Assembly: GCF_040954835.1 (NCBI RefSeq)
Contig: NC_090696.1
Coordinates: 72,353,722 to 72,417,721 of the forward strand
Length of the DNA stretch: 64,000 nt
Reading direction: 5' to 3'
DNA from: Lepisosteus oculatus
Lineage: Eukaryota; Chordata; Actinopteri; Semionotiformes; Lepisosteidae
The notes beneath the pieces were generated by a model. The model did no database searches. It was not told where the DNA came from and saw only the letters and a program-made list of their open reading frames with translations. Position numbers and translations under genes: made by a program. Below, one piece after another: positions 1 through 63,313 of this stretch. Position 1 is the stretch's first letter. Every line of letters begins with the position of its first letter.

Positions 1-1529
1 GCTGGGTGGGTAGGAGCAACTGGAATAAAGTACCTCGCTTAAGGGTACAACAGCAGAGTCTGGAGCAGGGACTTGATCCCATAACATATCGGCTCCACCC
101 ACTTCTACGCTTTTCCCAAGGACACACACCACACTACACAATACACATAAGACATTCCCACAATACTCTCCCGTATCTTACTCACTCTCAGAGAAAGTAC
201 TCACTTGTCTCTGTTGCTGAGGTGCTCCGTACCATCTGTATTGCTGCATCTTTGCCTGCAGAAGAAATCTTTCTTTCATCACTCTGGAAAATGTGGTGTG
301 CCAAAAATGGGGAGCCCCTTAATTGCAGTTAAAACACGAATCCACCCAGCATTTAAATTGCATGTGTAATGTTTCTTCTTAAAGAATGCTAATAGCTACG
401 GATAGCTTTAGCATCTGCAATGCGTTGATTTAGGCATAAATTCTGTAGATTTGATTGCTCTATCCATATAAAGGTATTTTCCATTTAAATAAGTGGTATT
501 TGGGAATTTAGAATGGGTTACTAGCATGAAAAAGAGTTTCAAGGTTTACCTCATGACTATCACTAAAAGCACCAGGAACAATCTGTTAAACATAAAAAGA
601 GTTAGTTTTCAAAAAGTAATGCTTTTGCCAATTACAGTATGTCATCCAGACATATTTACCAAATGCTTATAGTGCTAATAAAACTTGAAGGATGTTTTGG
701 CTTCTTTTTGACACTTAAAGGAGATTACACCACACACTGTGATTTGCATATTTGAAAAATTGTTTGACATTTCCGTGTGAAGCTCTACGCTCAAAACCAT
801 GGTTCCTACTGTTCTAAAAAACACTGAAAAGAATTCAAGAATTCTCAGACTGATCTGTGAAGAAGCACATTGTATTGCATAAACCTTTCAGTTTGAGATG
901 CCTGTTCAAATTATAAATTATAAGTGTCAATTATTGCAAACTACTATTCCAATTATTGCTTGGAAGCCTGTCCAAGTAAGCAGCTCAATGATATAAGCAG
1001 TGAGCATAGTAAACAACATAATATTGAATAGAACATATGTAGGTTTACACTAATGTCTGGCAAGGAAAAGAGATAGAGGTGTGAACCTCTAATTTTCTTA
1101 GTAGGTGTTCCTAATATACTTTAGGAACACATGTGGTGGGGGTAAGTATATAAATATATACAGGTATATACAGTATATAGATTAGATTGCATTGTTTTAG
1201 AATCTAAAAATATTTTACCCCTCAAACAAGGCTGTGAGCATCAGTAAACACTGTATAACGTTCTTCTCTCCTGAGCCAGTGCCCATTCCTGTCTTGTAAT
1301 TGATTGATTTGTTTCCAGGTCTAAAGGATATCCCTTGCCACTTATTTGTATGCGTGTTATATAGACAGATGCTCAGTTGTTTTGTTATTTACCCCATCCT
1401 CATTGATTAATATGTTAACTTGTTTAGAAATTGTTTCACAAAGATGACCTAAGGATAACCAATTGTGAGACTTACTGGAAAGGCCAGCGATGTGCCCAGA
1501 AAGCACAGGACCAATAACGCAATCTTCAT
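1..1529 (-). CDS. SCPP gene A, P/Q-rich SCPP, 5' part (runs off left edge)
   Basis: This is the amino-terminal part of a secreted SCPP protein. The start ATG is at 1529. The exon to 1476 encodes MKIALLVLCFLGTSLAFP, a classic signal peptide, and is followed by a GTAAGT donor. Its acceptor is at 1544 or 1530. Two further phase-0 exons are visible: 582-550 (IVPGAFSDSHE, AG acceptor, GTAAAC donor) and 19-1, which begins LLPTQ after a TTCCAG acceptor and leaves the window. The second exon ends in S-H-E, an S-x-E site for the Golgi kinase FAM20C. A non-coding exon 1 probably ends at the GTAATA donor at 1926, because neighbouring genes have the same layout. Further exons between 1476 and 582 may have been missed. 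The signal peptide is secure; membership of the P/Q-rich SCPP group is inferred from the matching architecture of the neighbours. Confidence 0.8.
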
Positions 1530-2027
1530 CCTGCAAAATTGCACCTGAAAAGAAAAACATTGTGATCCTGATTAAGTGTCATTTTCTTCTGGTAAGGGTG
1601 GTAAGATTTTGAGTACATAAATAATAATACTGGCCGTGCATGTGTATAAAACTAAAAGTTAAGAATTTTACTTTCTTGTTGGCCAGGTTTCTTGTTCGTT
1701 TAAAATAAAACATTTGACAGTAAGAAATTACAGAACTAACTTAAACATTTAGACTTTTGAAAACAAATTAGTTTAACACAAGCCATATGTACAGTATGTG
1801 TGCGACTGACACTTGAAATAATTTTAATATCATAACTTAATGGTTTCAGTATACTTTATGACAAAACCAAAGCTGTTACCATGAAGGTGAATCATAAGGT
1901 TTCTGATCAGTATAATTAGATATTACCTTGCCTTGTTGAATACGAAGCCTGTCCGAGAGCAGAAAACAGATCAATGAGGGTTTACATAAAATAAATAAAA
2001 TAGATTTAGAGTCTCTTATGCTCTTCT

Positions 2028-2092
2028 GCTTGCATTGGAGTTATCTGAGAAGGGCAGAATTTAAACCCTGTTCTGTTTCGGAAGGAACCAAT
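2028..2092 (-). promoter_or_regulatory. Promoter of SCPP gene A (CCAAT + TTTAAAT)
   Basis: On the minus strand, ATTGG (inverted CCAAT, 2092-2088) is followed after 22 bp by TTTAAATT (2065-2058), a TATA-like box. Transcription should start about 30 bp downstream, near 2030, giving a non-coding exon 1 that ends near 1927. Genes B, D and E have the same pair with the same spacing. The CAGGG immediately before the TATA-like box is identical in gene D. Confidence 0.65.
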
Positions 2093-12180: not shown

Positions 12181-13531
12181 TTAATCCTGTTCCTCAACGG
12201 GGGTCTGTAATGAAAAAAAAATAATCGAATTACACACAGCAGTCCAAAGCAACGTGAGAGCACAGCAATGGGTCTGGCCGACAAAGAGCAAATGTGTTTT
12301 TCATTTATTTTCTCAGACAAATACTTTTGGCTTCACGTCTTACAAGACAGTAAATAAACACAGACATCAAGTGAAAAATAATACTGTATATTTATTTTAG
12401 GCGCGCATGGGTGACATGAGCACTTTACACGTGGATAGTCAATGTGTGAGGGTTTCTTGGTACCTCATAATGCACCTGTATAAAAACGATCAAACAGTGG
12501 CACAGGCGGAAGAGTGGGATGGCAGTAAAAGGTCAGTTATCGCCTTACATTCTGACTTGGCTGGACAGGCTGGACGGGCTGGACAGGCTGGACAGGCTGG
12601 ACGGGCTGGACAGGCTGGGTTGGCTCCTGAGGGACAGGCTGGGGTATTCCGAAATTTGGAATAAACTGCAGGGAAACCCAGAGACCCACACCGTTAGTGT
12701 TACAGGACATTGGACTGGCAATGTGCTGAAGCCAGGCAGACCCTGGACACATCTGTTTCACAGGCCCCTTGGTGGATGCGTTGTGATGGGTGCCTTCCAT
12801 TTCTATGGGCAGATTCATGATTTATATCAGGAATATATATCTATATTGGCTAGCCTGTCCTTGCTGTGTGTGTGTATATATATATACAGTATATACTCAA
12901 GAAGAAATCTTTGTTGAAGTTTTGTACAAAAAAACCGCGGTGAAAGATCATGAGGAAGCAGTGATCTTACGTTAGGGGGCAGGTGTGGCAGGTTTCCGAA
13001 GGAGGGGAACAACTGTGGATGGACAGAGAGACAAGATGTATTACACACTCATCTGTCAGGTTCCACGGCGGCCATTAACAGAGTGGAATACAAAATCGGC
13101 GAGTATCTTACATTTGGTGGCACGTTTCCAAAGCCATGGAACACCTTCAGAAAGGAAAGAAAAAATACATAATATTACTGCTCTTCTTTAATACCCGAGG
13201 GAGTGACAATCCATGACTATCTCAACATATCTTACATTCGGGTTCTGCTGTGGTCCTCCTGTCTGGGGCATATTTCCATATGGGAACATCTAAAAAGACA
13301 AAAATGTTGTTTCATTAGTATAAACTGGAGGTATTGCATTGAAATATTAGGAGTCTATGGACAGGAAAGGAGGAAAGAGCAATAATTTACATTGGGTTGC
13401 TGGGGCAGCTGTGGCAGCTGAGGTTGCTGGGGCATCTGAGGTGGCTGAGGCATGTTGGAGGCTCCTGGGAACATCTGTAAACGCAACAGCACAGCCAGGT
13501 ATGAGAGAACAGGAACCTTTTTATGTGGCGC

Positions 13532-13602
<71 letters not shown>

Positions 13603-15969
13603 GGCGTGTATTGCTGACTTTGTCAGGACAAAATCTGAGAAAATGTCCCAACAATGTAAATGAGTTTCGTCCTGTATTCTAAAAGCCCGTTTCCTTTAAA
13701 TCTAATAGTGACCACAATCTTTATCACAGGTACAAGAACAATACACAACTCTGTAATATTTTTTTATAATTAACAGCATGTAGATGTAACGTACCTGCTG
13801 GTGCTGTCCAAAGCTGTAGGGGAAGAGCTGGAAGAAAACAAAAGATTTATCAATTTTTCAAGCCACTTTCAACCCCACCACAGGGGCCCCTGCTATTGTT
13901 CCTGAGGTGTAATCTTGCACAGTGCAGTCCACACATATCAAGTAATTCATATATCCAGTCATTAAGTACAAATCTACATGAAAATATTCCAGTTGATATA
14001 AGCGATTCAGACTTCAGCATGAGCTTTAAAACTGCTGTATTTTGATTACAGTGATTATTCCAGGTGGAAATGGCTATGTGGTGCTAAATGGCTAAATGGA
14101 ATAAAAAAAATGAACCAACTCTTCTACTAAGGTATGAAAAAAAACAAACAATATCCCTAAAAGAAAAACAAAAATCCCAAAACGTACAATTTCAATGCTC
14201 TGTCTACCAGCGGGCTGGGGGATCTTCTGTCTGATAAATGCCTGGGAAGGGAACATCTTCAAGGGAATCAAAACAATAAGTAAACATGATTGACAATTTC
14301 ACACAGACAAAGACATAAATTTAAAAGAAGAATCTGAAACCTACTGCCCCAGCATGCTCAGGACCTCCGAAAGACGGTCTTGGGTATCCATAAGGAAAGA
14401 GCTGCACAGAAATAAGGAATCTGTTAGATTTCCAAGTACTTTTTCAAAAAGAGGTGATAGAATCACTTTCCCTGGCTGACTAAGAAAGATTGTACAAGTA
14501 GATAACTGCTGAGTCTGTTACCGATTAAATCTACCAGACTATTTCTGTTCTGCATTTCAGACAGGGGGAGAGACGTTTATATTTAAAGTTGAAAGAATGC
14601 GAAGGAAAAAAAAAATTGCATTAGGATTTGAAAGCTGCATGAGCATCTGTCAGGCATAACACTTTCTTGAAAAAGAAAAATATGGTAGGAAACTCACAAT
14701 CTCAAAGCTTGCAGGCCGGGTAGGTCCTTGCTGCTGGGGTGTCTGTGATGGTGGAGCATAAGGATTGTTCTGCTAAAACAAATCAATCAGTTTTATTGCA
14801 TAGCAAAATTCAGCAGTTAAATTGGAATTTTAATGTAATTACCAGGAATCAAGTTATAATATTATATACTATTATACTGTATTATACAGCATATACTGTA
14901 GTATAAGGTGCTCAGCTGTTTCATGTCTTAAGGCAGGTTTAAAATGAGATCAGACCAAACCACAACTAATTTCTGTGTAGGAACTAATGCAAATTAGATC
15001 CTTAACCATAAGAAATAAAAGGTGTTTCAGAATTCAGTATTGTCTGTTTTAATAAAATTTATTTGATTCAGAGAAGACATACATCTAGAATATGCAGTAG
15101 AAGATTAATTCAGTTGTGAGGGAAGGAAAGTTGTTATTCATATGGGTGCCGTTTTTCCGAGTATGTTCAGGGCTATACTATTCAGGAGGAGGTAATGAAT
15201 TTGGATAAATCTGAAATTATTATTTTTTTGCTCTGTTTGCGGGACGCTTGCTGTATGCCTCACCTGTTGGGGTTGCTGACGATATGGAGCAGTTTGCTGG
15301 GGTGTCTCCACCTGTGGCAGAAACTCATAAAGAGGCTGCATCTGTAAACGACAGTTTTCATTTTATAAAGAAAACTATATTTGTAACTGGCAGAAAATGA
15401 GACCTTAAAAAACAACATTTCCTTAGAAGTTGTAGTTCCTATAGACATCGCGATATACATACAGATAAAATACAAAATGACATTGTCAAATTTCAAAACA
15501 ACAAAGAAAAAAGGAATTTTGATACATTATTTCTGTTGTCCATATTATCAGATTAAATCCGTAACAATAAAATACTAAAAAGACAGCTAAAAGAAAATCT
15601 CACTCCACAAAAACCTTTAAATATTTACATTTCTGCCTGAAATATTTATTCTTAGCCATGCATGTAGCCATTGCTTTGTTTTTCTCAAGTAAATGTTATG
15701 TGTAAACATAAATTTAACGTAGTCACATACTGTACAGTAGTACCCATTTACACATTTCAGAAATTTACGTCTCTGTCCTTTCTTTTTCAGTTTCAGAAAT
15801 TAGCAACCTACAGTATACTAATAAGCACATTAGTTATATTTTCTGCAGTCATTTAAGTGAAATGGTAAATATTTACATCTGTTTACTTCAGCGCATTCTG
15901 AATACCGGTACTTACTGGTGCTGCAAAGATGCTGCCAAAGAGGCAGGTGAGCAAAATTATGGTCTTCAT
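12181..15969 (-). CDS. SCPP gene B, P/Q-rich SCPP with (PVQ) repeat, about 239 aa in 12 coding exons
   Basis: This is a secreted P/Q-rich matrix protein. All introns are phase 0. Coding exons: 15969-15916 (signal peptide MKTIILLTCLFGSIFAAP), 15341-15264, 14772-14698, 14401-14345, 14256-14188, 13827-13795, 13474-13391, 13289-13236, 13144-13112, 13012-12971, 12665-12549 and 12204-12181 (TPVEEQD then stop). Exons 14772-14698 and 14256-14188 end in ASFEI and QSIEI, S-x-E sites placed right at the donor. Most other exons begin with LFP, MFP or a variant. The five exons from 13474 onward all end in Asn before GTAA. Exon 12665-12549 holds six PVQ triplets. The short acidic C-terminus and Pro-x-Gln repeats recall amelogenin, but orthology is not claimed. 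Exon 13144-13112 has the weakest acceptor. Non-coding exon 1 ends at 16548; the last non-coding exon is 11637 to about 11110. Confidence 0.85.
12556..12620. repeat. 9-bp coding minisatellite (GGACAGGCT units)
   Basis: About six and a half copies of a 9-bp unit, alternating GGACAGGCT and GGACGGGCT on the plus strand. Read on the minus strand in gene B's frame it encodes PVQ repeats. The unit keeps frame, and its variation is silent at the Pro codon (CCT/CCC). Confidence 0.9.
13533..13601. repeat. (GT)n microsatellite
   Basis: About 34 uninterrupted GT dinucleotides, in the gene B intron just upstream of exon 13474-13391. Confidence 0.95.
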
Positions 15970-20750: not shown

Positions 20751-20754
20751 CATG

Positions 20755-21117: not shown

Positions 21118-24100
21118 CTAATCCTCCTTCTCAGGCTCTGTTTGGGTCCCAAGAGCCTGAAATGATACAGGTACAGTATTTCTGGTGAGAGACTCTGTTG
21201 GTATTCTGACAGTCTGTATACAAATAATAATAATATCTATCTCCTTTACTAGCATCTCCACACACAGCATAGATAAACCATTACAAACGAAAACATTCAA
21301 TATTTTTTAAAGACTTAGCTAAAACAAATCTACTCTGAGACAAAAATTATTATTAAATGAAAACAGCATACATAACTACTTCAAAGTATTCACTTACACT
21401 TACATTTCTTTCAATAGAAGAAGTAACTATTATACCAGCAACATAAACATGTTGGTGCACTGTGTTTGCTCTAGTAAGACTCCTATTATGGGTCTCTAGG
21501 AGAAGTTTAAAAGTTTTTTTCAGCTGTATTGTGGGTGGCCTGTATGGTTAAATATAATAAATTGTAACAGAATCTTACTGGAAGCTGTGGTCCCACAATT
21601 GGCCCCATTGGTCCTGTATTTCCAAAGCCAAAGGGATACAGCTGAAGGGAAGATACAAGCATTAATAGGCATTTTTATCTCTTTTATAGTTGCACACATT
21701 TTTAATACTTTGGCAGAAGGAACTTTTAAGCTTACAATCTCAAGGCTTGGTCTGCCAGGCTGGGGGATGGACTGTTTAATAAATCCTCTGGAAGGCAAGA
21801 GCTGAAAATAATTAACACAAAAGTCAATATATTTCATTAATGCATAAGAGAGAATTACTATAAAAGTCTTAAAATACTGATACCCAGACTGCCCATCATT
21901 AAATAGCAGCTTATTCTTATTCATGGTTGCAGCAACGCGGACTTTATCTTTTTAGGATCATAGCACGGTGGAATTACAACCTGGACATGATTCTAGTCAA
22001 TTTTAAATGTATTCCACTAAAATCTGATTTTAACACTAAAATACATAATTAGTTTATATTGAGCATATTTTTCAGCAAGTACAGTACTTCAATAATTCTT
22101 ATTGATACTCAATCGCAATAAATAAAAAAACATATACATGCAGGTGATAATCACAAAATACATATGTGACCTTTTGGGGATGGGCAATTACATTTATCCA
22201 AATTTATCCACTCTATTTTGGGGGCGTTGGTGAGCAAGGTGTTTTTATTTTTAAGAATGACAAAGCATTAGCTTTGCATTCAAGGTTTAAAAAAGAATTC
22301 TGCCTTGAAGGGCTTTGAGCATGTTCAAAATAATTAAATATGAGCTTTATTTATTTAGCTATATTTAGAACTGTAATTCTTCCTTGACTGCATTTATAAA
22401 TGTCTAAGTCTAAAATAAAAGTATTTGACAGGGACAAAATTATCTCGCCTTACTGGATGTGAATGAGTCTACGACCAGTGAGCATAATCTGGACTTTGTC
22501 TTGCTGTAAAATGTAATCATACTGACTTCTCTAGAAATGTATGGTGATTTGCTGTTTGAATCATCTGAAAATATATTTTTTTTTACATGCACGTTTTGAA
22601 TAATGAAGCAACGGACTGCAGTTAAAGATGGATGAGCTGGAATGCAAGAAGGAGAGGAGAGAATCTCCATTCACTCCGGACATTCAAAGGCTCTAGAAGG
22701 GACGAGGCACTATGTAATTCAAGTTGCGGTGCTCTGACATGTTTCATTTTTCTAGGTCTTGGTTGTAATTCCACAAGGAATTGCACAAAGATGCAAATGC
22801 ACGAGGGGGTAACCTCCATGGATTTAGTGAAATCCTTAAAAAAGTACACAATTCACCTGTCCCTTACACACGTCTCCATAAAAAACAACCAACCCATCAA
22901 AAGCCAAAAAAACAAGCTCTGACTTACTGATCCAGGTTGTTGCTGAGCCCCATATGGGACAATCTGTAACACACACAGAAATGGAATTTCAGCAAAACAA
23001 AATCAAATACTCAAAAGAAGGAATGAGGTGTCCTTAACAGGAAAGACTTACGATTTCAAAGCTCGCTCGTCTTGCAGGGCCAACTGATTGTTCACCTCCT
23101 TGCACAAAATCGGGGATTTGCTAAAAATAAGCACAAAAACGTGCAGGTCATTAGTAACTTCAGGGAACAAAAAATATTAATTACTTGCAGAGCTTTGAAA
23201 TACTAGTACACGTGCATAATAACATTTAATGAATGGATAAGCTAGTTTAATGTAATCAGAATCATACTGCTCAAAGGGAGCAGCTACAGGAATATGCAGC
23301 ATAACAACAGTACAAATTCTCTCAGAGAGTACAAAATCGACAACTGGACAATGTATGATGAGGCTGGCCATCTCTAGTCCAGGAGATCCTCCGTCCAACT
23401 GCTGTCACAGGTCACCCTTGAGTTATCAATTCGTAAAGACCTGGAGCATGTGAGTTTTAATCAATTTAGCATGTCAGTTGTTTTGAGTGCGTTAGTAGGT
23501 ACTGTAACTGTGGTACTTGAGAGTTACAGGGTGTTTATATTTGCATTTCAAATGAAACAACTTTAATACATTTGCAAAGCCCCTGCTTAAGGCGTCTGAA
23601 CAAAAGCATTTTAAGTGTGTACAAACCGATGACCTAAGAGAGACCCATTAAGCCTGTGGCACTGTGGCACTGTAGGACAGGGATTGGCTAGTCCAATCCA
23701 TGCCATCAGTAAATTAAAGGAAACTTGTCCATTCTTCAAAGGCGATGACCGAGCAGTGGGCCTGTATTCACCAATATAAGGGAAACCGAAGTGATGCAGC
23801 ACTCTACTGTTCACGTATACGTGTGTGTGAATGAATTTCAGATGTTTGCTGTGTGATGGCATGATGATTTAAAATGTGGTTCTGTTCTGAAGGCTAATAC
23901 CAATTCCTGCTCACCTGCTGGGGCTCTTGCAGTATCTGAGGTGCCATCAGTGCTGGATTATAGTCATAATACAACTGGGCCATCTGCATGCACAAGAAAG
24001 GATTCAGAAGCGTTTGAAGGCTGAGGCCTCTGTCTCATCTTTGTACACTGCATTTTATATTAACTACTAAAAAGTAAACTCAAAAAGTACCACTCATCTT

Positions 24101-24479
24101 TAACTTCAGATATATCATCGCTTCATTAATGCAGTATTACTTAAAATAAACCCAGAGAGAGACTGAACCAAATTTACAGTCCCAGTGGGACTCTGTGTTT
24201 AGGAAATCTGTTTTGAGATTTCTTGATTTTCATGTGCATTCACTTAATTTTGTTTTTTTCTCTCCTATCTATGATTAATCGAACATCTTTCATTAAATGA
24301 GTTATGTCATGTAGTCACAATTAATAAATAAAGCATATTCGTAATAATAATAAGTGCACCATTTGTTAGGAGTTCTGTATTATCACGTACTGTAAGCCCA
24401 TTTAATGCATTTTTGTTATACTTACAGGAATGGCCAAAGTGGAGCCAATGAGACATGCTAGCAGAAGTACAGCCTTCAT
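21118..24479 (-). CDS. SCPP gene C, P/Q-rich SCPP, about 150 aa in 7 coding exons
   Basis: A secreted SCPP protein and close paralogue of B and D. Coding exons, all phase 0: 24479-24426 (signal peptide MKAVLLLACLIGSTLAIP), 23983-23915 (begins MAQLYYDYNPAL, ends QEPQQ), 23120-23052 (ends RRASFEI), 22963-22928 (IVPYGAQQQPGS), 21801-21736 (begins LLPSRGFIKQ, ends GRPSLEI), 21641-21579 (begins LYPFGFGN) and 21213-21118 (ends TEPEKED then TAG). ASFEI and PSLEI are S-x-E sites set right at the donor, as in B. The stop codon's exon continues four bases to a GTGAG donor at 21114, and a non-coding exon follows. The acidic tail is similar in style to B's. Exon 2's acceptor is at 24484; non-coding exon 1 ends at 24534. 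Confidence 0.85.
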
Positions 24480-30232: not shown

Positions 30233-33200
30233 TTAAACCGATGTTCGCAGAAAAGGCAGGTGCCTCAGCTTTGCCGATGTAGAGGGGGTTGTCACACTGT
30301 TCATACTTCTGCTTCCCTGGGTGAAAAAAACAAAACTGTTTATAAATCCCACAAAACAGAATTATAGCTGTGGTGTGTTCTGTTAAGTATGTGCCGGACT
30401 GCATACATCTCAGAGAAGCCTTTAAATACGTCTTATATATTAACAGAATATGACTTTGAGGTGCAGATGAAGTAGTTTTTACTTCTGTAACAGTGTGGGA
30501 GTGGGTGGCTCCGCGGCAGGCACCGGTAAAACGTCAACACCCCTAACTGAGGGACGGAAGCACCGGTGTGAGATTAGCAGGGACCACAAATAACACAAAA
30601 AATGGAACAAAAAGGCAAAAAGAAAGGTGAACTGCTGTGCATCCCGACCTCCAGCCTGGGCTTACCCTGTTGAACGGGGTCCAGCCGGGTAGAGCAGGGC
30701 GCGTCAGGCAAAAACAAAACTTGGGACAGGCAAAAATTAAAAGAAAACCTTACATGGGTGCAATCCCCTGCGGGACTGTTGTAAATAACTCCCCCTTTTG
30801 GGGGTGTCCCTGCACGTCCCTTCGTGGGGTATCCAGTGTGCCCTGTATAGGACCTGCACAGCTGTGGCTGGGATAGCTGTGATTACAAAGGTGAGGCGTC
30901 ACCCTTCCTCCAGGGCTCCGCCCCCATACTGGGCACGCCCCCACGTGACGCCACACTTCACTCAAAGGAACTCCTGTTCCAATGGCTACCAGAGAACCAA
31001 AAATTGTCTTGTCTTAGCTTATCAAATCCAGCACGTTTATAACACGTTAACATCCATAATGGTTGCATCTATGGATGTGCAAATGAAGTTGGTCCCCAAT
31101 ATATTCTTGTAGACTTGGGATGACAGCTCTAGATCAATGTTATCATTTATTAGTGTTATTGTCATAATAATATAATAATTACCTTTTTGAATTCTGTGAA
31201 ACAGACACAATTGTAAATGCATCATTAGCAAGAATGCTTACCTTATGATTCTTTTCATATGGTCTATTAATATCCCATATAAAATGGGTACATCTGCAAG
31301 AGAGAAATATAAAATATGTATAAGCCTGGAGAATTATGGAAAACATGTAGAGTCAAAAATAGTCAGATATTTTCTGTTCTTACAGGTTGCTGTGCTTGTG
31401 GTGGGTAGCCAAATGGATAAAGCTGCAAAAACAGGGAATGGATATTATTGAATAATATATACACCGTATACACTGTTTATATAAAATAGTGTTGACTGGT
31501 ATGACAAGTTACAGTTGTATATTGGTGCAAAACCATTTAAAAATAAAAACTGCTGGTATTTTAGAGAATTTACCTTTTGTGGAACTTTATATAGTTTCAG
31601 ATAGTACCCAAAATACTGTATATCTCCAGTAATGGACAACAACCTGTCAGCTGAAGGCAGTTTTACAAACAAATAAACCTCTTCTTTTGCGTAATTCTAA
31701 ATATGTTGTTCCTGCTGTCTTCAGTTATTCATGTGAAATAATAACTGAAAAGTTTAGATTATATCTAGCAACCCATTGGCCCTTGAAGGTATTGCTCTGA
31801 CTTTGTCTCATTGCATGATTATCAGTTGGTTGGTGAAGGTTCTGTTGTAACATTGATGAAGATACTTCCTCTTAACTGCTACAGTAAAATACCCAGCTAC
31901 ATAGAATGGCATGTATTTAAGTAGCTTTGGATAAAAAGCCCAAATTAATATTTAACAAATTCTTGGCAACACTATCCTAGCACTAATTCTAACCCCTGAA
32001 ACCAACCATTATACTTTAGTTCACAATAGTTCATAGCTGATGAAAAACAGCATGCAGAGTCTTGTTTTAAAAAAATCTATTTATCTCTTAAAACCACTAC
32101 TTTTTATCCTTCAGGCTAAGAATCAATAGGAAAAAAATTCTTACAATTTCAAGACTCATTCTCCCTGGGTACTGAGGCATCATGGGGTTAGAGAATCCAA
32201 CAGAAGGCAACATCTACAAAACAAAATAAATAGAGTGTGTGTTAAAGCTACTGTATGAATTTATTGCATTCAGCTCTACTGTGCTACTGTTTGTAAAACC
32301 TCATTAAGTAAAAATGTACATTCCTACCTGCTGGGGATATCCCATAGGCATCACCTGAAAGTTGAAAAAACAAAGAGAATCAAAAAGTATTAGAACTGAG
32401 GAGTGCTAGGAATGTAGTCACTAAAGCTAACACAAAGCCATTGCTATCTGCCTGCCTATCATGGAAAGGAAAATGAATTAACATGCTCTCGGATACCAAT
32501 TCCCTCAGCTTTGTGAAAAGCTCATTTCAAAGACCTGTAGTTCATTGAACTTTGTTCCCATTCTTCAACTTGATTGCCACCTCTTAAAACATAACAAACC
32601 TGAAAGATGTTCATTTTAAGATATCTGTCTATATATTATATAATCTTAAAAGACTTTGCCCCCTTACGTTCTTTTTCATAACTGCTTAAAGAAAGAGGTC
32701 TACTAAAAGAATATTTTTTTATTGGGATTAATGACCCAATATCAAGGAGAAGTCATGGCACTGTCATATCAAGAACCCATGGATGCCAGCACAGGCCAGT
32801 CTGTATATACTCCTTAACATTATAATGGTTGGCCAGATCCAACTAAGAAGAAAACGTGCTCTGTCTCTCCACTGCTGCTGGATGGCTAATGAGTTTGTTG
32901 TACAATTCTCCAACCGATTCTTTGTTTTTATGATGACAGCTAGTAGAAAAACATTAGTACTGTGCCACTCTAAAGATTTGTCTATCGCCTGTGTTCTGTC
33001 CCATGTATCACACTCCCAAATACATCATGTTGCTATTGAAAAGACTCACAAATGGTAACACATTATTATTTTTGCTTAATCTACAGTATACAAAACAAAT
33101 GGTAGTGTGCTGTGACCTAAATAGACACTTCATAAATATTCAGCTTTATTTTCGATGAGAAATTGACAAACACGTACTTGACAATACCTGGATTTCTAAG

Positions 33201-35381
33201 GACCTTCTATGGGCCCTCTATACTAGACAGAGTTTTGAAGAAATCTGATCACTCACTACATCTACATCAAGGTTAGCGGCAGCTCCTTGTCCTTGTGTCG
33301 GAGATGAAGGTGCAAAGGGTGCTGGATGCTGAGGGTGAGAAGGAAAAATCAGTGAACTTACAGCTGCAGAGTTTGGACTCAATCTAACTAATATGAAAAA
33401 TATGACAGATATTTAAAATCATGGACTGTAGTGAAGCAGAACTCGTGTACTGTTTTGAACTCTTTAAGATGTGCACGAGATGACATTTCTTAATGTTGTG
33501 GTCACATATTTAGCCATTTTGCTTCTGTCTGTTACTGTAGGTAAAACAATCTGGCAGCAAATAATGACTAAACGTGTATTTTAGCTGTGTAGAAAATAAC
33601 TCACCATTTCAAATCCAGAAATTTCATTTATTCAGCTCAGTTAGAAAAGCAGATAAAAGTTCCTTCACCTGTATATTTCCGATCAAAGCACTCCACAAAC
33701 TAATAGGTTTGTTGTACCATTCTCCAACTGATTCTTTGTTTTTCGATGATAGCTAGTATAAAAACATTAGTACTGTGGCATTCTAAGGATTTGTCTGTTA
33801 ATTTCATTCTGTCCCATGTAACACACTCCCAGATACATAATGTTGTTCGTTACAACACTCACAAATAGTAACACATTATTACCTCTTCTTTATCTATACA
33901 AAACAAACTGTAACTGTGTACTGCTGTGACCTAAATATGTACTTTTAAAATCATTTCACAAATATTAATCTGTATTTTCCTATGAGGAATCGACAAACCC
34001 GCTAGCAGGATATCTAAGGACCTTCTACACTATGTGAAGTTTTGATCAGATCACTCACTACATCCATATCAAGGATAACAGGAGCTCCGAGTCCTTGTGT
34101 CCGAGATGAAGGCGGGTAGGGTAGAGGCTGTTGAGGGTGAGAAGGAGAAATGACTGAATTCACTGCTGCACAGTTTGGATTCTTCATATTAGACTAAATA
34201 CCATGAAACACATGAAACACACACTGACAGATATTTAAGATCATGTACTGCAGTGAAGTGAAGATCATGTACTGTACTGTTCTGAACTGTTTAAAACAGT
34301 ATATTTCTTAATGTTGTGGTCGTGTGTTTTGCCAATATTTTTCTGTCTGATGGGTAACAAAATCTGGCAGCAAACAATTATTAAACTTGTCATTTATCTG
34401 TGTAGAAAATATCTTTTCTACAAATAAATCTAGAGGTTGGACTAGAATTTATGAACTCAGCTCAATAAGCAAGGCAGATAATATTTCCTTCACTTGCATA
34501 GTTCCAATCAAAATACTCCACAAACTCTACTGTTGAAGCACATACTGCTCCAATTTTTATTTTAAAATTATAAAACTGATTAAAAACAATTCTTAAGATT
34601 TTTAGTTTTTTTTCTTGGACTCAGATTTGGACATGATTGCCTGTTCTATTTCAGTAATAAGAATTTTATATATAATTTTATACACATTCATTTACTTATT
34701 AGCTTTTTTTGTGCAGGTTTGTGTTTGATTTAAGAATGATGTAATCTCCCTACAACACAAATTCTTACTTGTGTGTAAATACACTGGCTTTAAGTTTCTT
34801 ACCTTTGATCCCACATTGCCAAATGGACTCAACTATAAAACAAAAATTAAAGAAAAGTTTTCACACCGGGCATGAGAAATGATCTTAAACATACAGTACA
34901 CAGTGAAACACAAACCACGGGGCACAGATGTAAACTATGTGTAAGTTCTATTAATATCAGGAAGAGGAGGCTCTTCTTTGCCAAGAGGGTTGTAGCAGTA
35001 AGGGGCAAACTACCTTGTAATGCTGTTAATCCTTTTACAATGGATAATTTAAAATTAAAATTGGGTTACGTTTGCTGTTATATGTGTTCCATTCTTTACT
35101 GTGCATTTTTTTAGAGCTACAGTATGTTGTCCATTTATGTACTTATACTGTATATATAGAGTAATCATCAAGAGTTTCAAATCCCAAAAATAAGATGACA
35201 AAAATCTTATTTATATTATATACATTATACATACTGTAAGTGAAGAAAATGCATGAATCTCTGTTAGGCCCAAAGTTGTTCCTTTGAACCAATTGTTTTG
35301 TATCTTATATTTAAAAGCCATACTTACAGGAAATGCCAGGGTTGTCCCAAGAAGGCACACAAGCACAGCTACAGACTGCAT
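30233..35381 (-). CDS. SCPP gene D, P/Q-rich SCPP with duplicated exon, about 147 aa in 8 coding exons
   Basis: A secreted SCPP protein. Phase-0 coding exons: 35381-35328 (signal peptide MQSVAVLVCLLGTTLAFP), 34832-34803 (LSPFGNVGSK), 34127-34059, 33328-33257, 32354-32328 (VMPMGYPQQ), 32213-32145 (begins MLPSVGFSNP, ends GRMSLEI), 31422-31384 (LYPFGYPPQAQQP) and 30316-30233. Exons 34127-34059 and 33328-33257 are duplicates: both carry PSS.TQG and end LD[MV]DV before GTGAGTG. The MSLEI exon ends in an S-x-E site at the donor, and it and the next exon match exon pairs in B and C. The last exon (GSRSMNSVTTPSTS... ending FLRTSV) is the least certain part: its acceptor CACCCAG keeps phase 0 and opens a frame to TAA, but other genes end in acidic residues. 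Exon 1 ends at 36485. Confidence 0.8.
30486..30955. mobile_element. LTR-like insertion in the last intron of gene D
   Basis: About 470 bp, more GC-rich than its surroundings, beginning TGTAACAG and ending GCCACA, flanked by CTTC repeats (ACTTC if the shared A is counted). TG...CA ends with a 4-5-bp duplication suggest a solo LTR. I found no coding remnant of a retroelement within it. Confidence 0.55.
32886..34526. repeat. Tandem duplication of about 815 bp within gene D
   Basis: Two adjacent copies, about 32886-33704 and 33705-34526. Shared landmarks include AAAACATTAGTACTGTG (32948 and 33763), a CATGTA..CACACTCCCA.ATACAT block (about 33002 and 33817), the two homologous exons, and TCCTTCAC.TG near each right end. 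Copies diverge by scattered substitutions and small indels, so the event is not recent. Confidence 0.85.
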
Positions 35382-44213: not shown

Positions 44214-46946
44214 TCAGGGGTAGATGAAAGGAGCCCTATAGTCATCAGCTTCGGGCATTTCGTCATCGGCGGGAATGTTGCGCTCTGCATGGTTGACATG
44301 CACCCTCTCGGCGGCAGCTGTGGCCGCGGCGGCGGCTGCGTTGGGCTGTGCTGTGCCTGCGGCGGCTGCGGGCGGATTCCCGACTGTCGCGGCCCTGACG
44401 CCGGCCGGTGTGGTCATGCTGAAGGCGGGGTCTCTGGACTGTGGAGCGGGCTGGTTGTTGCTTCCCTGAACTGGCACGGTGCTGCCTGGTGTGGGCGGCA
44501 GGTTGCCGTGCCCTGCTGGGAAGACGGCAGGAGCAGTGGGGCTGCCGCCTTGGCTGACTGGGAACAGCCCGGCGTCGGGGGCTACCGGGAGGATCCCCTG
44601 TCCCGTGGGGAAAACTCCCTCTGTCCCGGGCACCGTGCCACCAAATCCGCCATAGCCCGATCCGGCAAAGCCAGGAACAAACCCTCCAAAGCCAGCCACC
44701 CCTCCTGCTGCCTGTGACGAACACACACGTAATGTAAAAACGTCTGCACCTGAGGACGTGAACTCGGGGGTGCGAGCGTTGTGTCAGACTGGGCAGCGCA
44801 AATGGCTGTCAGACTTGCTACAGTAGGTCTGTAAATTTTGAAATTTCGAATGGAAATTCAAATCTGGACATTTGAATGCCTATAAGCTGCTGCCCTAATG
44901 AGGTCAGTATAGCCTCTGGGCTTGTCCGGTGCATTTTAAATAAGACATCAACATGGGAGAGAATCATACGTAAAGTATTTGTGGTGAAATTTAACTAATC
45001 TAATTATTAAAACACCTCAATAATTTATAATTGGTAACTACTACTGTACGTTCCCTGTGTGTACAATGGTGGATACGGTTTTACATTTACCTGCATTTCT
45101 TCAGAACTAGCACTTCCGAAGCCACCACCCTAGAAGGCAAGAAAATGTCATGGCTGATGATCCGCATTAAAGATGTGCTCAAAAAAGTTTGTTTATATGT
45201 TCAATACAAGTGTAATAAAATTCCATGCTTTTAAATATAGCGCTTTGCATCCGTAAACATGTCAGAAAACTTCACATACAGGAGAGGACCTGGCAGTTCA
45301 GCCTGAGAATTGAGAATGTTTTTTGTCACCAATTGAATTTAGATTAAACATACTGTACAGTAAAGTAGAACTTCTGAGCAAACCCAGCATGGAATTTAGT
45401 TATTACACTGGGTACAGTTAGATCTCAATTTAATATGTCATATTAATTGCTGAGATAAAAATGAATATCTCACAGAGCAGCACCAAATTTTGATCAGAGA
45501 TAAAGAGTGCCACCAGCACCAATAACAGCAGCAATGTGGCTTTTCTCAGAGGTCTCCCATCCCAACACTCACTAGGCCCTGCTTGGAATAACTTCAGAAA
45601 CCTGACAAAATCAGGCTACAAGGTGACAAAACTGCTGGTGCTATGGTTTGGATATTATGCAAGATTGACTTATATTAAATTATACTTTCACTTCATAATC
45701 AATTATTAAATTTAAATATGTAATACAGAAAGTTACAATCTATTAAAATATCCAGCCATTACTGATTTTGATTTAATCACAGGATTCACAGGCTGGGAAG
45801 TTATCAGCTGAATTAGATATCCTGATTGACTCCAGCTCTTTGTAAGTAAATGACAGATTACAATCAAGCACCAACGGCCTTTCTGATTTGCGTTTCACAG
45901 AAATGTTCCTGACTAAATTATGTAAATTAAGAAAAATTGTTCCTGGTTTAAATGATGAAAATAAAGAATGTTGATGGTGCAAATAATAACATTGAAGTGC
46001 TGGTGTTTACCCCCATGGCAGACTGCATTGGCTGGATTTGGAGATAAAGGATTTGTGGAATCATCTGTGGGAATGAAAACAAAAAAGGATTCTGGTGAAA
46101 TACAATACAATACAATCGTAATATAATACAATTATAAAAATAGTAGTGAAGGACATGGTAAGACCCAATGCTTGTCAAATGCTTTTTGAAACTTCTTCCT
46201 TAAATGTATCTCCTTTAGGAGAACACGCCATTGAACAAACCACACAGTGATTAGGGACTGTATAATCCTCAGGTCTTTCTGCAGTTGGCTAAACAAGGCC
46301 TCTGTAAAGCTGCCATCACACACAAACACGGTGGACCCGGCCACTTCTGCCACAGTGCTGTGGTGTAAATAGAAGGTTTTGGCATGAGTCTCTGCGAGGC
46401 GCTAAACTGAGTCACGTTATCACCCCTCTGCATGATTTCCTGAGTCTGCTCCATATTGTGTTACTTGTATGTTACCTCTGTCAATACTGCTCAGTTCGAG
46501 ATGACAGGGCTCTGTCGGCCTAGAACAAGTCTGATGGTTCGCAGTGAACAGCCTGTTTAATTATTCAGGGCTCGTATCGACTGTTTGAACAGTGCTTCGC
46601 CTGCATCACTGCAGCTGCAGGGTGCTGTTATCGAGAAGGAGGCTCGGCTCTCTGCTCCCTGGCAGCGTACGGCCCGTACCTGCTGCTGTGGTGGGGCACC
46701 GGGCTGTGCAGCCTGAGGAGGCTGTACTGGCTGCTGGGGGAAAGCAGTATTGAAAAAGACGCCATAACCAGGAAACTGAAACAACAAGATTAAAGAACAG
46801 CGTTAGTTTGCCCTCAATGGGTTTCGTACTGTAATATGACTAAACTGGGATTGCAAAATATCTGTTGATATCAATCATTACACACAAGTAAACGTGTAAC
46901 TGCTGTTATTTATAATAATTTACTTGTGGATCTCAAATCATGTCAA

Positions 46947-46982
<36 letters not shown>

Positions 46983-49900
46983 GGTCTATAAAATGTCATT
47001 CATATTTGATTAAATGTCATTGTTCATATCAATAGAGTTTTACTAATATATAATATTTACAATACTGTTTTACTGCCATCTACTGGCATGAAAAACGTAC
47101 ATATAACCTTTACAACGTATGTTTAAATATTCAAAGTAGGTGCTTGGGGACCTTTTGTAACAGAGGCAATTATTCAAAAAGCACTATAGAACAGATTCCA
47201 ACCTGCTGTTCATCTTGGGCCTGTGGTGGCATGATGGGTAAAATTCCAAAAGTATTGAACACCTGAATGGATCAACAGCATTGGGAGATGTGTTAAAATA
47301 AAACATGGATCAAGACCTGGCCTCTGTATGGCTGTGGTAGAATTATAAGTTGTACATGGTGAAATCAAATGTTTGAAAGACAAAATGCTGCCATACCAAG
47401 ATAGCTCCTTTTTTCATAACCTTAAGTGGAGATGGTGCTGAATGCTGGTCAGCTCGATTTTGCTTCTGTAACACCCGTGGTGTCCCCCCACCCCCCGCAG
47501 AGTTAGTGATATTAGCGAGCGCTCGTTAGGCCTCACTGACGACACAGCAAGCTCACAGGAGCCAGGTGGGTTACAAGGGTCTCAGGAGGCTGTTTCTCAG
47601 CCTGGACTGAGAAGGATCACACTCTGCAGGGTCTGTTGGTTGAACCACTAACAAAACTCATTTTCTACACAACACTAAAGTTAGCGTTTTGGTTCAATTT
47701 CTCCAGAGTCTTAATTATGAATCTCTGCAGATATTAGATAACACCATTAGGTGCAGACACGACAAATGCAAACCTTGTCAAGGATGAAGCATTAACTTAT
47801 CCAATCGAAACTCTATGCAATTGATTTCTCACTTGCTCACCAGTTATCCTTCAGTCTGCTAGGCCAAAGCCCTCGCTTAAGTTTTTAAAGAGATGCATAG
47901 TTTATGAAATGTGTTCTTGTGCATTTAATTACACAAATAAATGGTTTTCCAAATAAAAATTAAAGAGAAAAATGGTGTGCTTTGCTTGCTTCACTTTTCC
48001 TGACTGACAGGTTACCATTTTCTAACATGGGTGGTATCCATTCGAGCTGTACAGCTTGAAACTATTCCCTTTACAATATCTCAACAGAAACCATGGAGTC
48101 AACCTCTCTTTTGCTTTGTAATGAAATGGCGCCAACATACTGGAGGGAGCTGGGCTGGAAGAGTTGGCTGGTGCCCCTGGGTCCCGGGCTGCGGTCCGTT
48201 GATGCCGGTCTGTGGAATCTGAATGTTAGGCTGCAGCACCTGGATGCCAGGCTGCGGGGCCTGTGCAGTGGGGTGCTGCTGCCCTGCCTGGTCACCCTGC
48301 TGCCTGGGCGCTGCTGGGGCTGTAGGTGTGGCTGGAGCACTTCCTGCTGTAGCACCAACCTGCTGCACAGGAAGGAGGCCGAGATCAATCCGATAATGCA
48401 TTCCGTTGTCCGTGAAGATACCAAAGTTCAGCGGAATTCTGGTTTGTCTACTACCGTGGGGAGTCTGCTTACTCAACAGAGGAACAGAAACCAGAAGACA
48501 GACGTTGAAACTGCGAATGGTTGTGTGAGTGTGGAACAAGGCATCCGAGCCAGGTTGCCGAAGCCTTAACTCAAGTCTCCTCCAAGAAAGGAATGGACCC
48601 TGGCTCAATTAGCTATTAGCTACCAAACAGCCTAGATGGGCCAAATTGCTACACCTTGTTTGCAACCTTACTTTCTCTTAATGTTCTTAATGAAACTAGA
48701 TCTCTTGTTCTAAGATCAGTAATAGTCAAGCGGTATATTAAGTTTACTGTTCAAATAAAGCCCAACCTTCGATCTTCCTTTGTTAGGTCATGAGATACTT
48801 ACAGTAAGTATTTTAAAGTTTTAACACCACTTTTTTATACAATTTTGAATAATTATGCAAAAAAATGATATGCTTACTGGTGTCTGCTGTCCTGGGACCT
48901 GAGGCAACAAGAAAGGAGTTTCATACTCATACTATGAAGTAAGAAAGAACACGACAAATAAGAACAATTAAAGAAACACTATTCTGTCTTATTATTTAAG
49001 TAAATATACCGATATACAGTTCATTTTTACACTATTTGAGAATTATTTTTGGAATCCGTGTGTGTTAGAAATGTACTAAAAAACTCCATATTCGTGTGGT
49101 TATATCTGGACGATTACTTGATAAGATATATTGAAAGTCCCACAACCCATGGCAGCAAAATCAAACGAAGTATAACTCTGTTTTTTCCGTTAAGCGCTAC
49201 AGAAAGCGCCGAGATTCTGAGCAAGGTCGAGGAAACGCGCAAAATGTTTCCAAAGTTACGGATCTCGACCTACCTGCTGCTCCGCGTGTACTAGCTGCAT
49301 CTGCTGCAGGCCTGGCTGATACTCCACGGGCTGAAAGCTAGGAGTCATCTGATGGGGCAGCTGTGAGGGCCCCTGGGGTGGGAGCTGTGATGGGGCCTGG
49401 CTTGTTGGTGTCTGAGACGGCTGAGCCTGGATCGGGGGCTGCAGCCCCGTGTTGTGAGGCAGCTGTACCCCTGTGAACTGAGGGATCTGTGGGGGCTGCA
49501 GTCCAGTGCTGTGTGGTGGCATGTTCAGAGAGGGAAACATCTGGATTGCAACAGAGTCCACATGTTAGTCACAGCGTGGTGTCAGTGTTAAATATATATT
49601 TATAAGCTACTGTATTGGTGTTGCTTTGAAGCAGCAGTGAGTAATCACCATATTTGATCACATATTACTTTCTGGGAGAACCCAACCAAAGTTAAAGAGA
49701 GTTGTATTCTGTATGCTGAATGATCTGAAACATTCACTGTTTTAATCTGAGACCTCTTTGGGTAAGTACTGGCGTACTTCAACACATAAAATCTCGGCTA
49801 TGGCCTGTGCCTTTTTCTACCAAAACTGTGAGTCGGCAAAATCAACAATTAATATTGTGTGTTTGATTGCCTAATGAAAAAAAATCAGCAGCTTACCATC

Positions 49901-50580
49901 GACTGCTGCTGCATGAATGCTTTGTAGCGGGCCATCTCTCGCATCGTCTTAAAAAGAAGTTTCAGAATTTGCATTATTTTTACAATCTTTCTCTTATTGT
50001 TTCAGATTAATTCAGTTTTCTAAAAAAATATTTTTTTTTCTGATCACATTTTATTTAATGTCATTAAATAAATAGCTTATAATCTTTGTGAATGTCCAGT
50101 ATTGTAATAGATGATAGCTGTTTTTATCAAAGGAAATTGAAGGTACTTCAATACTCAACGTTTTAGTTAGATTGAAATCATTGACATTGTCACATGTGTA
50201 ATATTCAGTCTGGGTAAGGCACAATTAAAATACAATACACTTGATGCTGACTCAGTATGTGGTATTTGCTCAAGCTTTCTCAACAATACGGAGGTGAGCT
50301 TCTCATTACCTCTTGGCTCAGACTGAAATATCGTGGGTTCCCAGCCTGCTGCTTCTGAGGCTGCTGCTGATGGTGAATCTGCTGAAGCATCTGGCGCTGT
50401 AACTGCTGATAGACCTGAAGCTAAGAAAAGATAGCTATTTGCACACTGCTGTTTCCTTGAAAAGAAAGTGAGCTGGCTGATAAAATTTTAAGAAAATAAA
50501 AAATATGAAAAATATACTGTACTTACTGGCATACTAAGCGTTGTGCCTATGAGGCACATGAGCACAATTGCCGATCTCAT
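44214..50580 (-). CDS. ambn: Ameloblastin-like SCPP (gene E), about 506 aa in 10 coding exons
   Basis: Likely ameloblastin, a secreted enamel/ganoin matrix protein. Phase-0 exons: 50580-50527 (signal peptide MRSAIVLMCLIGTTLSMP), 50420-50310 (Gln-rich, ends YFSLSQE), 49947-49897 (begins TMREMARYKA), 49540-49274, 48898-48878, 48464-48141, 47262-47203, 46775-46680, 45129-45091 (GGGFGSASSEEMQ) and 44711-44214. The SLSQE/TMRE junction matches the SLSLETMRQ stretch of mammalian ameloblastin. The SSEE exon followed by a GFGG/PGF-rich segment also matches ameloblastin, where SSEE precedes an FPGFGGM-type segment. The terminal exon is GC-rich, with FSMTTPAGVRAAT (resembling an amelotin C-terminal motif), an Ala-rich tract and an acidic end. 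The signal peptide is closer to amelotin's, so an amelotin identity is the main alternative. The start of exon 48464-48141 is inferred from its pyrimidine tract. Confidence 0.75.
46948..46982. repeat. (ATT)n microsatellite
   Basis: About 12 copies of ATT, in the gene E intron between exons 47262-47203 and 46775-46680. Confidence 0.95.
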
Positions 50581-57099: not shown

Positions 57100-57195
57100 C
57101 TGCGTCAGCGTGCATAGGCTGCAAAGGAACAAGTTAAAGTTTATCACCCGGCTTGACACCCTGAGAAGGCTCCACAGCCGAAACATTGTGTTTCC
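57100..57195 (+). mobile_element. Dispersed repeat with hammerhead-like core, possibly Penelope-like
   Basis: The segment CTGAGAAGGCTCCACAGCCG (57161-57180) followed by AAAC resembles the hammerhead ribozyme core found in Penelope-like retroelement repeats: CTGA..A, a GGCT/AGCC hairpin, then CGAAAC. One core base differs from the CTGANGA consensus, so activity is doubtful. The family is inferred from this motif alone. Confidence 0.4.
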
Positions 57196-59693: not shown

Positions 59694-59699
59694 TTTATT
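59694..59699 (-). terminator. Poly(A) signal of gene F
   Basis: AATAAA on the minus strand about 185 bp after the stop of gene F. Transcript end expected near 59675. Confidence 0.5.
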
Positions 59700-59881
59700 C
59701 ACTGCTTGAAGTGGGGATGAACTGTTCCCCTTTTGCGACCGAGAGATAGCTGAACAGTTTCTGAGGATGCCTGGCCGAAAATCATGGGAATGGGTCTTAA
59801 CCCAACATGCTTTGCCTAAACCCCGCGACTCTAAATGTTGAGTTGCCACCTGCTAGTGGGCACAGACACGGGGTTTAGATT

Positions 59882-60441
59882 TTAGACGACGTCGCCTCGG
59901 GGTATCCCTGCGGCTCCCTGAGCGGTCACTGCGGCCGCCGTGGTCGGAGACAGACGCGAGAAGCCCCGAGGAAGGGTTTCGGCTGTCGCTGTCGGCTCCA
60001 CAAACACGGCCCCGTCGCCCGGTCTCGTCGACGGCGTCTTCCTTAAGGTCGCCGGTGTCGCTTCGCACGGAGTCACCTCGCCCGCGCCACCGCCCCTGTG
60101 GACGCCGGCTGGCTTTCTTCTCTTAGCCGACGGGTGAGGACTTTCAGGGACTGCGCCGGTTCCCCCCGGGAGTTCAGGCATTGCAGTGGTTGGGCTACTC
60201 CCCTGGTGGGCAGGATCTGTGCCTTGGTCCCCTCTACCGTCCGTAGGTTCACGGTTTTCTGGGGTTGGCAAAATACCCCTAGGAGTAGGGATGTCTTCCT
60301 CCGTTGCTCCGCCGCCCTCGTTCTTTGTGATGCCTCTGTTAATTCCTCCAGTAATTACTGGGATTAAAATTCCGCTGTATACAATCTAAAGTGTAGGGAT
60401 GGAGAAACATGTTAATTTTACGTGGATGTTGTTGGGTTTTT

Positions 60442-60480
<39 letters not shown>

Positions 60481-63313
60481 GTTTATTTATCAAATGCACT
60501 ACAATACAGCGTGCAGCAGTAGTTGCTGGCAATAAAATGTATTTTCTGCGAGCTCACCGGGGGACGGTAAAAATCACTAAATTAAAGCTACAGAATAAGG
60601 TTCCATACATTATGTTATGTTAATACACAGAAATAGAAATTAAATAAAATAAACTCAGACAGAGCTCAAAATAAATAGAGCTGCGATGTGTCCAGGGTGT
60701 ATGCAATACATTATGTCCAAGTAGTGCAGTGTGCCGAAAACAGTGGAAACTGTATGTCCATGTAGCAATTACGGGTGATTTGCTGAAGGAACTGCAGCTT
60801 GGCTATTAAGCCTGACAGTTTTGCCAAATTGTTTTAATCTGTAAAGCTAAGGAATCTGATTAAACCCAAATTCTACTCATCTGCTAATTATAAATAGCAA
60901 ACCTACTGTATAACTCAATGTTTGGATTCCACTAGGTAGAAAAAAACATCTGGCCACCATCATGCCTTCGTGCATTATACTATCATCAAGTACTGCGTGT
61001 GTAAATTGCATTTGGTGGGTGGCTGATTTTTTAAAATTTCATCTGGGCCTTGAAGTGAATCAAGTTGATACACCCTTCATTCGAATCTTTCATGAAATAA
61101 AAAAAACGGTGTAAAACTAAACAAAGACCTGGCAGTGACGTGTAGAGTTGAAGACTTATAGATATAAAACCGGAAACGATGAGCTTGACATGGACACGTC
61201 AGTTACACTTTCTAATCGACACGATAGGGGAAGCAAGAAAAACCTGAAGAGAATGCTGGGAAATGTAGTTAAAACTGTCAAATATTTAATCAAGGGGTTT
61301 ATGTTACATTTGTACAAGGCAGTAGTGAGATATCACTTAGAATGCTTGATACAATGTTATGGAACAAGCTATCCAGCAATGTTGTTGAAGTCGGTACCCT
61401 GTTTTTTTTCCCCAAGAAACAGCTGGATAACCCAGCCCTTGGCTGCTACTGTAGCTACTAGCTTAGTTACTATGTTAGGTACTAGCTACAGCTACTAGCA
61501 AACAAACAAAGCTATAAGGGATGAGTGAGTTACACCTCTTTTCCAGTGTGAGCCCCAGTGGCCTAATGGATAAGGCACTGGCCTCCTAAGCCAGGGATTG
61601 TGGGTTCGAGTCCCATCTGGGGTGTCTTGTTTTAAGAGCTCTGTGATGAGTGAACAACTTGACTGTGTGTGTTAATAAACACACCTCTTTCCAGCTTTTC
61701 TTATGTTTCTTATAAACAATAATGTGCAAATAAAGTATGGAAAAAAGTAAATACAGTGTTTGCTGTACCCAAAATGTCAGTAAATGTAATTAAAATAGAA
61801 AGACTACTTTCCCTAACACACAGCTTACAGTAAATGTAACCCTCAGGAGGTGAAATAGGAAAATAATTTTATTCTAATAGTAAAGGTAATATTAGTACAG
61901 TGCTAACACCTCATACTCTAAAATTCTAAATGGCAAGACTGCAGATGAGAGAAAAAATAAAGAATACATTTATAAGTAATTGCACAGGTTAATAATATAA
62001 TTCAATTAATGGTTCCCTTCTTTGATTTTACCATTTTTTATGAAAATGAAGTTCTGTACATCAGTACTTGAAATTGTGCAAAAATAAGCTACAGTTTTAA
62101 TTCATTTTACTTACTGGTTGAAGCTGGGGTTCTTCAGAACTTGCTGACCCAGCCTGGAAAAGACAGATTATCAAAGAACTGGTCAGTTTATTATAAGTAT
62201 TGAAATTACATCCAGACTTACATTGAAGTTTGTGAATATTTTTGGAGCAAACAATTACAAAATAGCAATATTGTTTATAATATGACTCCTCAAATGAAAA
62301 ACACTTACTGTTTGTGCCTGCTGAATCATGATTGTGTACATCTGGAAAGAAAAAATATTATTTCATTTTCAAGAAAAGAACAGCAATAACAAATCAAGCA
62401 GAAATTCATTATACATCATAACCATATTAGTGCTAGTGCTTTTGTATTGAAGAGGCAAATGTGCTGCTTCTCAATTAAAGATGAAAAGTGAATTGCTATT
62501 CGATACTCTAGGATAAGTTTTAGAATAGAATAGAACAAAAATATTTTCTGTTCTATAATACAATAATAATGGAAAAGACCTTAAGATGACCATAATACAC
62601 AGAATAATCAGAGCAAAACTTACTGGTGGCTGAACATCAGTGTTGGAGAGAGGACTTATAAGTTGTATCGCTGGAAGGTATGTGAATCCACCCTGATACA
62701 ATGGAAGAAAGATGTGGTTATACTATAGTTTGATGTAGAATTTTTTTTTTTAGTTTTTCTCACCAGTTCATTATTTAATAAACTGCTTTTCAGAGGCATT
62801 TGTATACGTTATGATTACGTGTCTATATGCAGTACAGTATTAAATCTAAAATATGAAATCATAGAAATTTAATTTTAAAAGTAGGAATTAATCATTGTCT
62901 ATTTTCAGCAATCAGTTACGGTAGGAAAGATCATTAAAAATCATCAATACATTTGAAAGTTGATGAATTGCCATACCATAATTACATTTTGTAACATAAG
63001 GACTACATGGCTATGAAAAGTAACTACAGTAAAAGCAGATGTAATGATGAGTTGAATTATTCAATGTGTTTATTGAATTTAATAAATAAGATGTATGTTA
63101 AAGTTGATCTACTGTATATCGACTGTGAAGTATAGCTATCAGACAATGAGAACATATAAGAAGGGACAGAAGAATAAAATATTAAGAATTCTAAGTTAAT
63201 AAAAGGATTAATTATGTTAATATTACCTGAGTCTGTTGATCTGACACTATTGGAACCTGAGGCATAAATGATATCAATTGGAAATTTCCATACATGGGAT
63301 CCATATTCATAAC
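59882..63313 (-). CDS. SCPP gene F, amelotin/ameloblastin-related, 3' part (runs off right edge)
   Basis: The C-terminal part of an SCPP protein; its signal-peptide exon was not found and should lie beyond the window. Phase-0 exons: 63313-63227 (begins VMNMDPMYGNF, ends SDQQTQ), 62692-62624 (begins GGFTYLPAIQ, ends NTDVQPP), 62341-62309 (MYTIMIQQAQT), 62153-62115 (AGSASSEEPQLQP) and the terminal exon 60385-59882 (begins IVYSGILIPVITGG, 167 codons then TAA). The SASSEE exon has the same size and place as in gene E, so E and F are paralogues. The order IMIQQAQ, SSEE, PQ, hydrophobic run, GILPT is reminiscent of amelotin. In tetrapods amelotin lies directly upstream of ameloblastin in the same orientation, as F does to E. 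Identity remains tentative; another P/Q SCPP such as scpp5 is possible. The terminal exon is strikingly GC-rich. Confidence 0.75.
60442..60479. repeat. (AATC)n microsatellite next to a SINE/LINE-like tail
   Basis: About nine AATC units immediately left of AAAGTTTATTTATCAAATGC, a typical tail context of fish retroelements in minus orientation. It lies 57 bp upstream of gene F's terminal exon, within the intron. Confidence 0.85.
61148..61420 (+). mobile_element. CR1/L2-type LINE remnant
   Basis: A plus-strand frame contains LHLYKAVVRYHLECLIQCYG, which corresponds to the LYKSLVRP.LEY..Q.W block at the end of many non-LTR reverse transcriptases. It lies in an intron of gene F, antisense to the gene, and is too short and diverged to function. 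Confidence 0.6.
61552..61624 (+). tRNA. tRNA-Arg (anticodon CCT)
   Basis: A 73-nt cloverleaf. The acceptor stem GCCCCAG pairs with CTGGGGT, followed by discriminator G. The A box is TGGCCTAATGG and the B box GGTTCGAGTCC. The anticodon stem-loop CTGGCCTCCTAAGCCAG presents CCT. A TTTT run for RNA polymerase III termination follows at about 61629-61632. No intron. It lies in the last intron of gene F on the opposite strand, and the intact stems suggest it is functional. Confidence 0.93.

Follow-up and report, generated by a model that had tools for sequence, protein, structure and literature searches.

Six consecutive short-exon P/Q-rich SCPP genes, among them a possible amelotin, in a probable enamel/ganoin-matrix cluster of Lepisosteus oculatus

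Gar SCPP cluster I reportedly comprises enam, ambn and further P/Q-rich genes (work of Kawasaki, 2017, and Mikami, 2022). Here we analyze a Lepisosteus oculatus locus of this kind, contained in a window of 64,000 nucleotides (the whole stretch of DNA under study; contig NC_090696.1, C1:72353722-72417721) of a 1.2-Gb, 813-contig assembly. The window was scanned with 100 kb on either side, 264 kb in total; coordinates below 1 or above 64000 are in window numbering and lie outside it. SCPP genes number 39-43 in bichirs and gars, with cluster I including enam and ambn (PMC13367325), and gar and bowfin have enam, ambn and scpp5 (PMC8423624, available part). The available part of an amelotin study asks for polypterid and lepisosteid data (PMC4373244).

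The window very probably carries six consecutive leftward P/Q-rich SCPP genes of the gar enamel/ganoin-matrix cluster (cluster I), which would be, from upstream to downstream: an amelotin-like candidate (gene 6), ameloblastin (gene 5), three paralogues (genes 4, 3 and 2), and enamelin (gene 1). Gar SCPP clusters of this type are already known, and the genes here are not matched one by one to published models. The tandem cluster lies near SPARC-family genes, with SPARC-family exons at C1:72310703 and C1:72553526-72556155; past the left-hand one is a C-terminal exon of USO1. These neighbors and the literature on gar SCPP genes are therefore the grounds for assigning the window to the known cluster.

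The gene models are ab initio, and come from an exon finder that combines generic weights for splice sites with a coding model for P/Q-rich sequence, each set from general knowledge. Every model exon was required to be in phase 0, to have AG/GT borders and to hold whole codons, so that these properties are built into the six models. Of their 66 exons, 42 lie inside the window, 38 of them shorter than 200 nt. An S-x-E motif is present in all six models, with P at 13-22% and Q at 7-18%. At a score of at least 12, the window holds 34 non-overlapping symmetric phase-0 exons on the minus strand and 4 on the plus strand. Markov shuffles at this threshold (n=20) give a mean of 0.25 and a maximum of 1, which makes it very improbable that some of the short exons arose by chance and that some genes are partly pseudogenes, even though the models are ab initio, several candidate exons were picked or discarded by eye, and the exon finder returned no convincing last exon for gene 4. 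Minus-strand symmetric candidates number 34 in phase 0, 11 in phase 1 and 8 in phase 2, phase 0 being imposed in the models. A scan of the 264 kb for signal exons (ATG exon, hydrophobic core and donor) finds 18 on the minus strand and none on the plus strand; an earlier scan with other settings found 16 and 2.

An earlier note on this DNA had described a six-gene, minus-strand SCPP cluster in short exons, and this overall observation is confirmed. The strand bias of both kinds of scan favors its statement that all genes read leftward. Its statement that all introns are phase 0 is not established by the models, which had that phase imposed. Its view that long-ORF methods miss almost all exons is fair: of the window's nine open reading frames of 120 aa or more, four hold a model exon, whole or in part, in frame. 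The signal-peptide frames it placed on the minus strand, each followed by GTAAGT, are all present: 1529 (MKIALLVLCFLGTSLAFP), 15969 (MKTIILLTCLFGSIFAAP), 24479 (MKAVLLLACLIGSTLAIP), 35381 (MQSVAVLVCLLGTTLAFP) and 50580 (MRSAIVLMCLIGTTLSMP). Each of these five exons has an acceptor-like AG 9-17 nt 5' of its ATG, in keeping with P/Q-rich SCPP genes, in which a separate exon holds the signal peptide and a short stretch of 5'UTR. The motif proposed for them is slightly too tight, fitting three of the five literally; the frame at 1529 has V and F at L positions, and that at 50580 has S at an A position. Relaxed to allow L or F and A or S, it fits four of the five, has no plus-strand occurrence, and appears in none of 200 shuffles made from the 64-kb minus strand under a first-order Markov model. 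The proposed lineage expansion of P/Q-rich matrix genes is borne out in part: the genes are P/Q-rich SCPP genes, and apparent counterparts of ameloblastin and, less surely, enamelin are among them.

Gene 5 (44214..50580, minus) is apparently the fish counterpart of ameloblastin, as judged from its predicted protein. It contains the AMBN N-terminal pattern ..SLSxE TMRxx, and its penultimate exon (45091..45129, minus; GGGFGSASSEEMQ), which has an SSEE motif, agrees with the small SxxE exon that precedes the final part of AMBN. The 19-residue AMBN match of gene 5 crosses an exon border, is not low-complexity, and is reached in 0 of 1000 shuffles. This match speaks against the unlikely alternative that the six genes belong to scale-only cluster II, located on gar LG2 with sparcr1 and spp1 on its two sides, a lineage expansion without ameloblastin or enamelin in which likeness to AMBN and ENAM would reflect convergence or shared SCPP ancestry. 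Pfam Osteopontin, which matches nothing here, also counts against cluster II, as a weak test. Pfam Amelin has no secure match across the whole genome, again a weak test, since gar ambn is reported. The gene 5 model begins with signal-peptide exon 50580-50527 and continues through 50414-50310 (..YFSLSQE), 49947-49897 (TMREM..), 49540-49274, 48931-48878, 48362-48141, 46775-46680, 46064-46011 and 45129-45091 to the last exon, 44711-44214. Candidates 47601-47557 and 44788-44729 were dropped.

Gene 6, which the earlier note had recognized from its exons, is recovered with five exons in the window (59882..64000, minus): 63313-63227, 62692-62624, 62341-62309, 62153-62115 and the last, 60385-59882. 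Outside the window are exon 64560-64453 and a likely signal-peptide exon, 65621-65571, with a probable start at 65621 and a 17-aa signal peptide (MKALIFMLCLVMSSGRP); its donor is present and a clear acceptor near the ATG is absent. Gene 6 is directly upstream of gene 5 on the same strand, with its stop at 59882 and the gene 5 ATG at 50580, and the signal-exon scan finds no further signal-peptide exon between them; this is the position of AMTN, provided that gene 5 is AMBN. The available part of PMC4373244 gives the layout of non-mammalian AMTN as a small SSEE exon and a long last exon with a C-terminal RGD. Both are found here: the penultimate exon (62115..62153, minus; AGSASSEEPQLQP) has an SSEE motif, and the 504-nt last exon (59882..60385, minus) ends in ..IPRGDVV, placing RGD two residues before the stop. 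Gene 6 looks like a candidate amelotin of a fish; if so, this would be a new finding.

It is slightly more likely than not that gene 6 is instead an ameloblastin duplicate confined to ray-finned fishes and no orthologue of amelotin, with an RGD end unrelated to that of amelotin. The likeness of gene 6 to AMTN in sequence is slight, and Pfam Amelotin has 0 matches genome-wide at E 10, a weak test. None of five candidates in 65571-64400 is a plausible S-x-E exon 2b; the sole one with S-x-E (64455-64342, SCE) has a weak donor and overlaps the end of exon 64560-64453. Exon 2b is also absent from X. tropicalis AMTN (PMC4373244, available part). Gar amelotin is not named in the available parts of the amelotin literature covered (PMC4373244, PMC6117938, PMC6785452, PMC10568847), which leaves the gar SCPP papers of 2016, 2017, 2021 and 2022 outside it, and no claim is made that print lacks one. 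Should gene 6 be amelotin, a question left open in the available part of PMC4373244 is answered, and the gene goes back to the ancestor that bony vertebrates share. Candidate exons 64936-64892 and 53776-53702 were dropped.

In four candidate last exons of 50 or more open codons, at 71865 (right), 59899, and -15682 and -26114 (left), the frame closes one or two residues after an RGD. From the predicted termini, this suggests a C-terminal integrin-binding design common to members of the cluster. Separately, the last intron of gene 6 contains a tRNA-Arg (CCT) match on the plus strand (window 61552-61624; 67.4 bits, Rfam), which is either a gene or a tRNA-derived repeat.

Genes 4, 3 and 2 have modules in common and are probably tandem paralogues, of which one may be scpp5, a name guessed from the published gene set. 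Gene 4 (31384..35381, minus) consists of signal-peptide exon 35381-35328 and exons 34127-34059, 33328-33257, 32354-32328, 32213-32145 (..GRMSLEI) and 31422-31384. It contains an 873-bp tandem duplication with halves 71.7% identical, one holding exon 34127-34059 and the other 33328-33257. Candidates 34832-34803, 30876-30754, 29021-28956, 28517-28338 and a last exon at 28356-28189 were dropped. Gene 3 (21118..24479, minus) consists of signal-peptide exon 24479-24426, exons 23983-23915, 23120-23052 (..RRASFEI), 22963-22928, 21801-21736 (..GRPSLEI) and 21641-21579, and last exon 21156-21118 (ALGTQTEPEKED, then stop). Gene 2 (12181..15969, minus) has signal-peptide exon 15969-15916, followed by 15341-15264, 14772-14698 (..RPASFEI), 14401-14345, 14256-14188 (..RQSIEI), 13827-13795, 13474-13391, 13289-13236, 13144-13112, 13012-12971, 12665-12549 (VQP repeats) and last exon 12204-12181 (TPVEEQD, then stop).

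Gene 1 may be the fish enamelin counterpart, an assignment less sure than that of gene 5 to ameloblastin. Its 5' part (1..1529, minus) comprises signal-peptide exon 1529-1476 and exon 255-205. The rest of the gene, left of position 1, reaches about -9435 and includes numerous short repeat exons and a last exon of 876 nt. A possible S-x-E exon at 582-550 (minus; IVPGAFSDSHE) is outside the model; it is one of the chief candidates dropped, with -1259..-1372 (or -1208..-1372), -4110..-4175, -8216..-8263 and -8377..-8424.

The mechanism proposed here draws on general SCPP biology and would involve: secretion of the six proteins by scale- and tooth-forming epithelium; phosphorylation of their S-x-E serines; and assembly of the disordered chains into a matrix outside the cells, by which calcium-phosphate mineral is guided. 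Phase-0, whole-codon exons would allow exon and gene duplication without damage to the frame. Both the repeats of genes 1 and 4 and the presence of tandem paralogues would follow from such in-frame duplication. More generally, short-exon matrix genes that are mostly missed by ORF lists can be recovered from plain sequence reading.

To the right of the window is an array of seven tandem copies (C1:72436670-72477794; window 82949 to 124073), spaced 5.5-8.2 kb apart. Each is predicted to encode an identical 18-residue signal peptide and then a variable secreted peptide, in frames open in 7/7 copies; the exon 4 acceptor is recognized in 6/7, copy 124073 deviating there. Identity averaged over pairs of copies is 0.995 for the signal exon, but 0.798 for exon 3 and 0.664 for exon 4; the two introns have 0.858 and 0.805, the 5' flank 0.763, and two downstream stretches 0.924 and 0.795. 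Across exons 3 and 4, dN averages 0.411, compared with 0.198 for intron divergence, and dN is the greater in 20/21 pairs; dN exceeds dS (mean 0.351) in only 11/21 pairs, both comparisons being subject to an uncertain exon 4 alignment. A C-terminal amphipathic segment is matched by at most 2/500 shuffles in five of the seven copies, and by 38 and 52 of 500 in the other two. The copies may be diversifying, perhaps host-defense-type peptides derived from SCPP genes. If expressed, the array would be a case of a mineral-matrix cluster yielding fast-evolving secreted peptides in a fish.

Three more signal-peptide exons are found right of the array (128579, 139903 and 158534), and long P/Q-rich exons of 303 and 348 nt come after the latter two; the cluster therefore continues rightward. 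On the left side, USO1 C-terminal, SPARC and Kazal exons (L013 551-925, 6877-7194, 9756-9971) are located 40-50 kb from the window, close to the cluster's left edge. Adjoining the SPARC-family gene is an acidic gene (-33496 to -36084) with SSDSSNSDES and RGDSYVEMDS, possibly spp1, dmp1 or a different acidic SCPP gene.

The locus resembles the gar LG2 cluster (cluster II) in its tandem P/Q-rich SCPP genes; in contrast, enam and ambn are placed in cluster I (PMC13367325), and the LG2 genes are expressed mainly in scale-forming skin (PMC8423624, available part). With gar cluster I it shares tandem P/Q-rich genes near SPARC-family genes and the presence of ameloblastin- and enamelin-like genes, while the published models may or may not include gene 6 and the adjoining array of seven copies. 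It departs from the sarcopterygian AMTN-AMBN-ENAM block in having three extra tandem paralogues between genes 5 and 1, and in a gene 6 with slight AMTN likeness and without a plausible exon 2b. It agrees with that block in the order and orientation of its amelotin-like, ameloblastin-like and enamelin-like genes, and the 9.3 kb between the first two here compares with the 5-73 kb by which AMTN lies upstream of AMBN in sarcopterygians (PMC4373244, available part).
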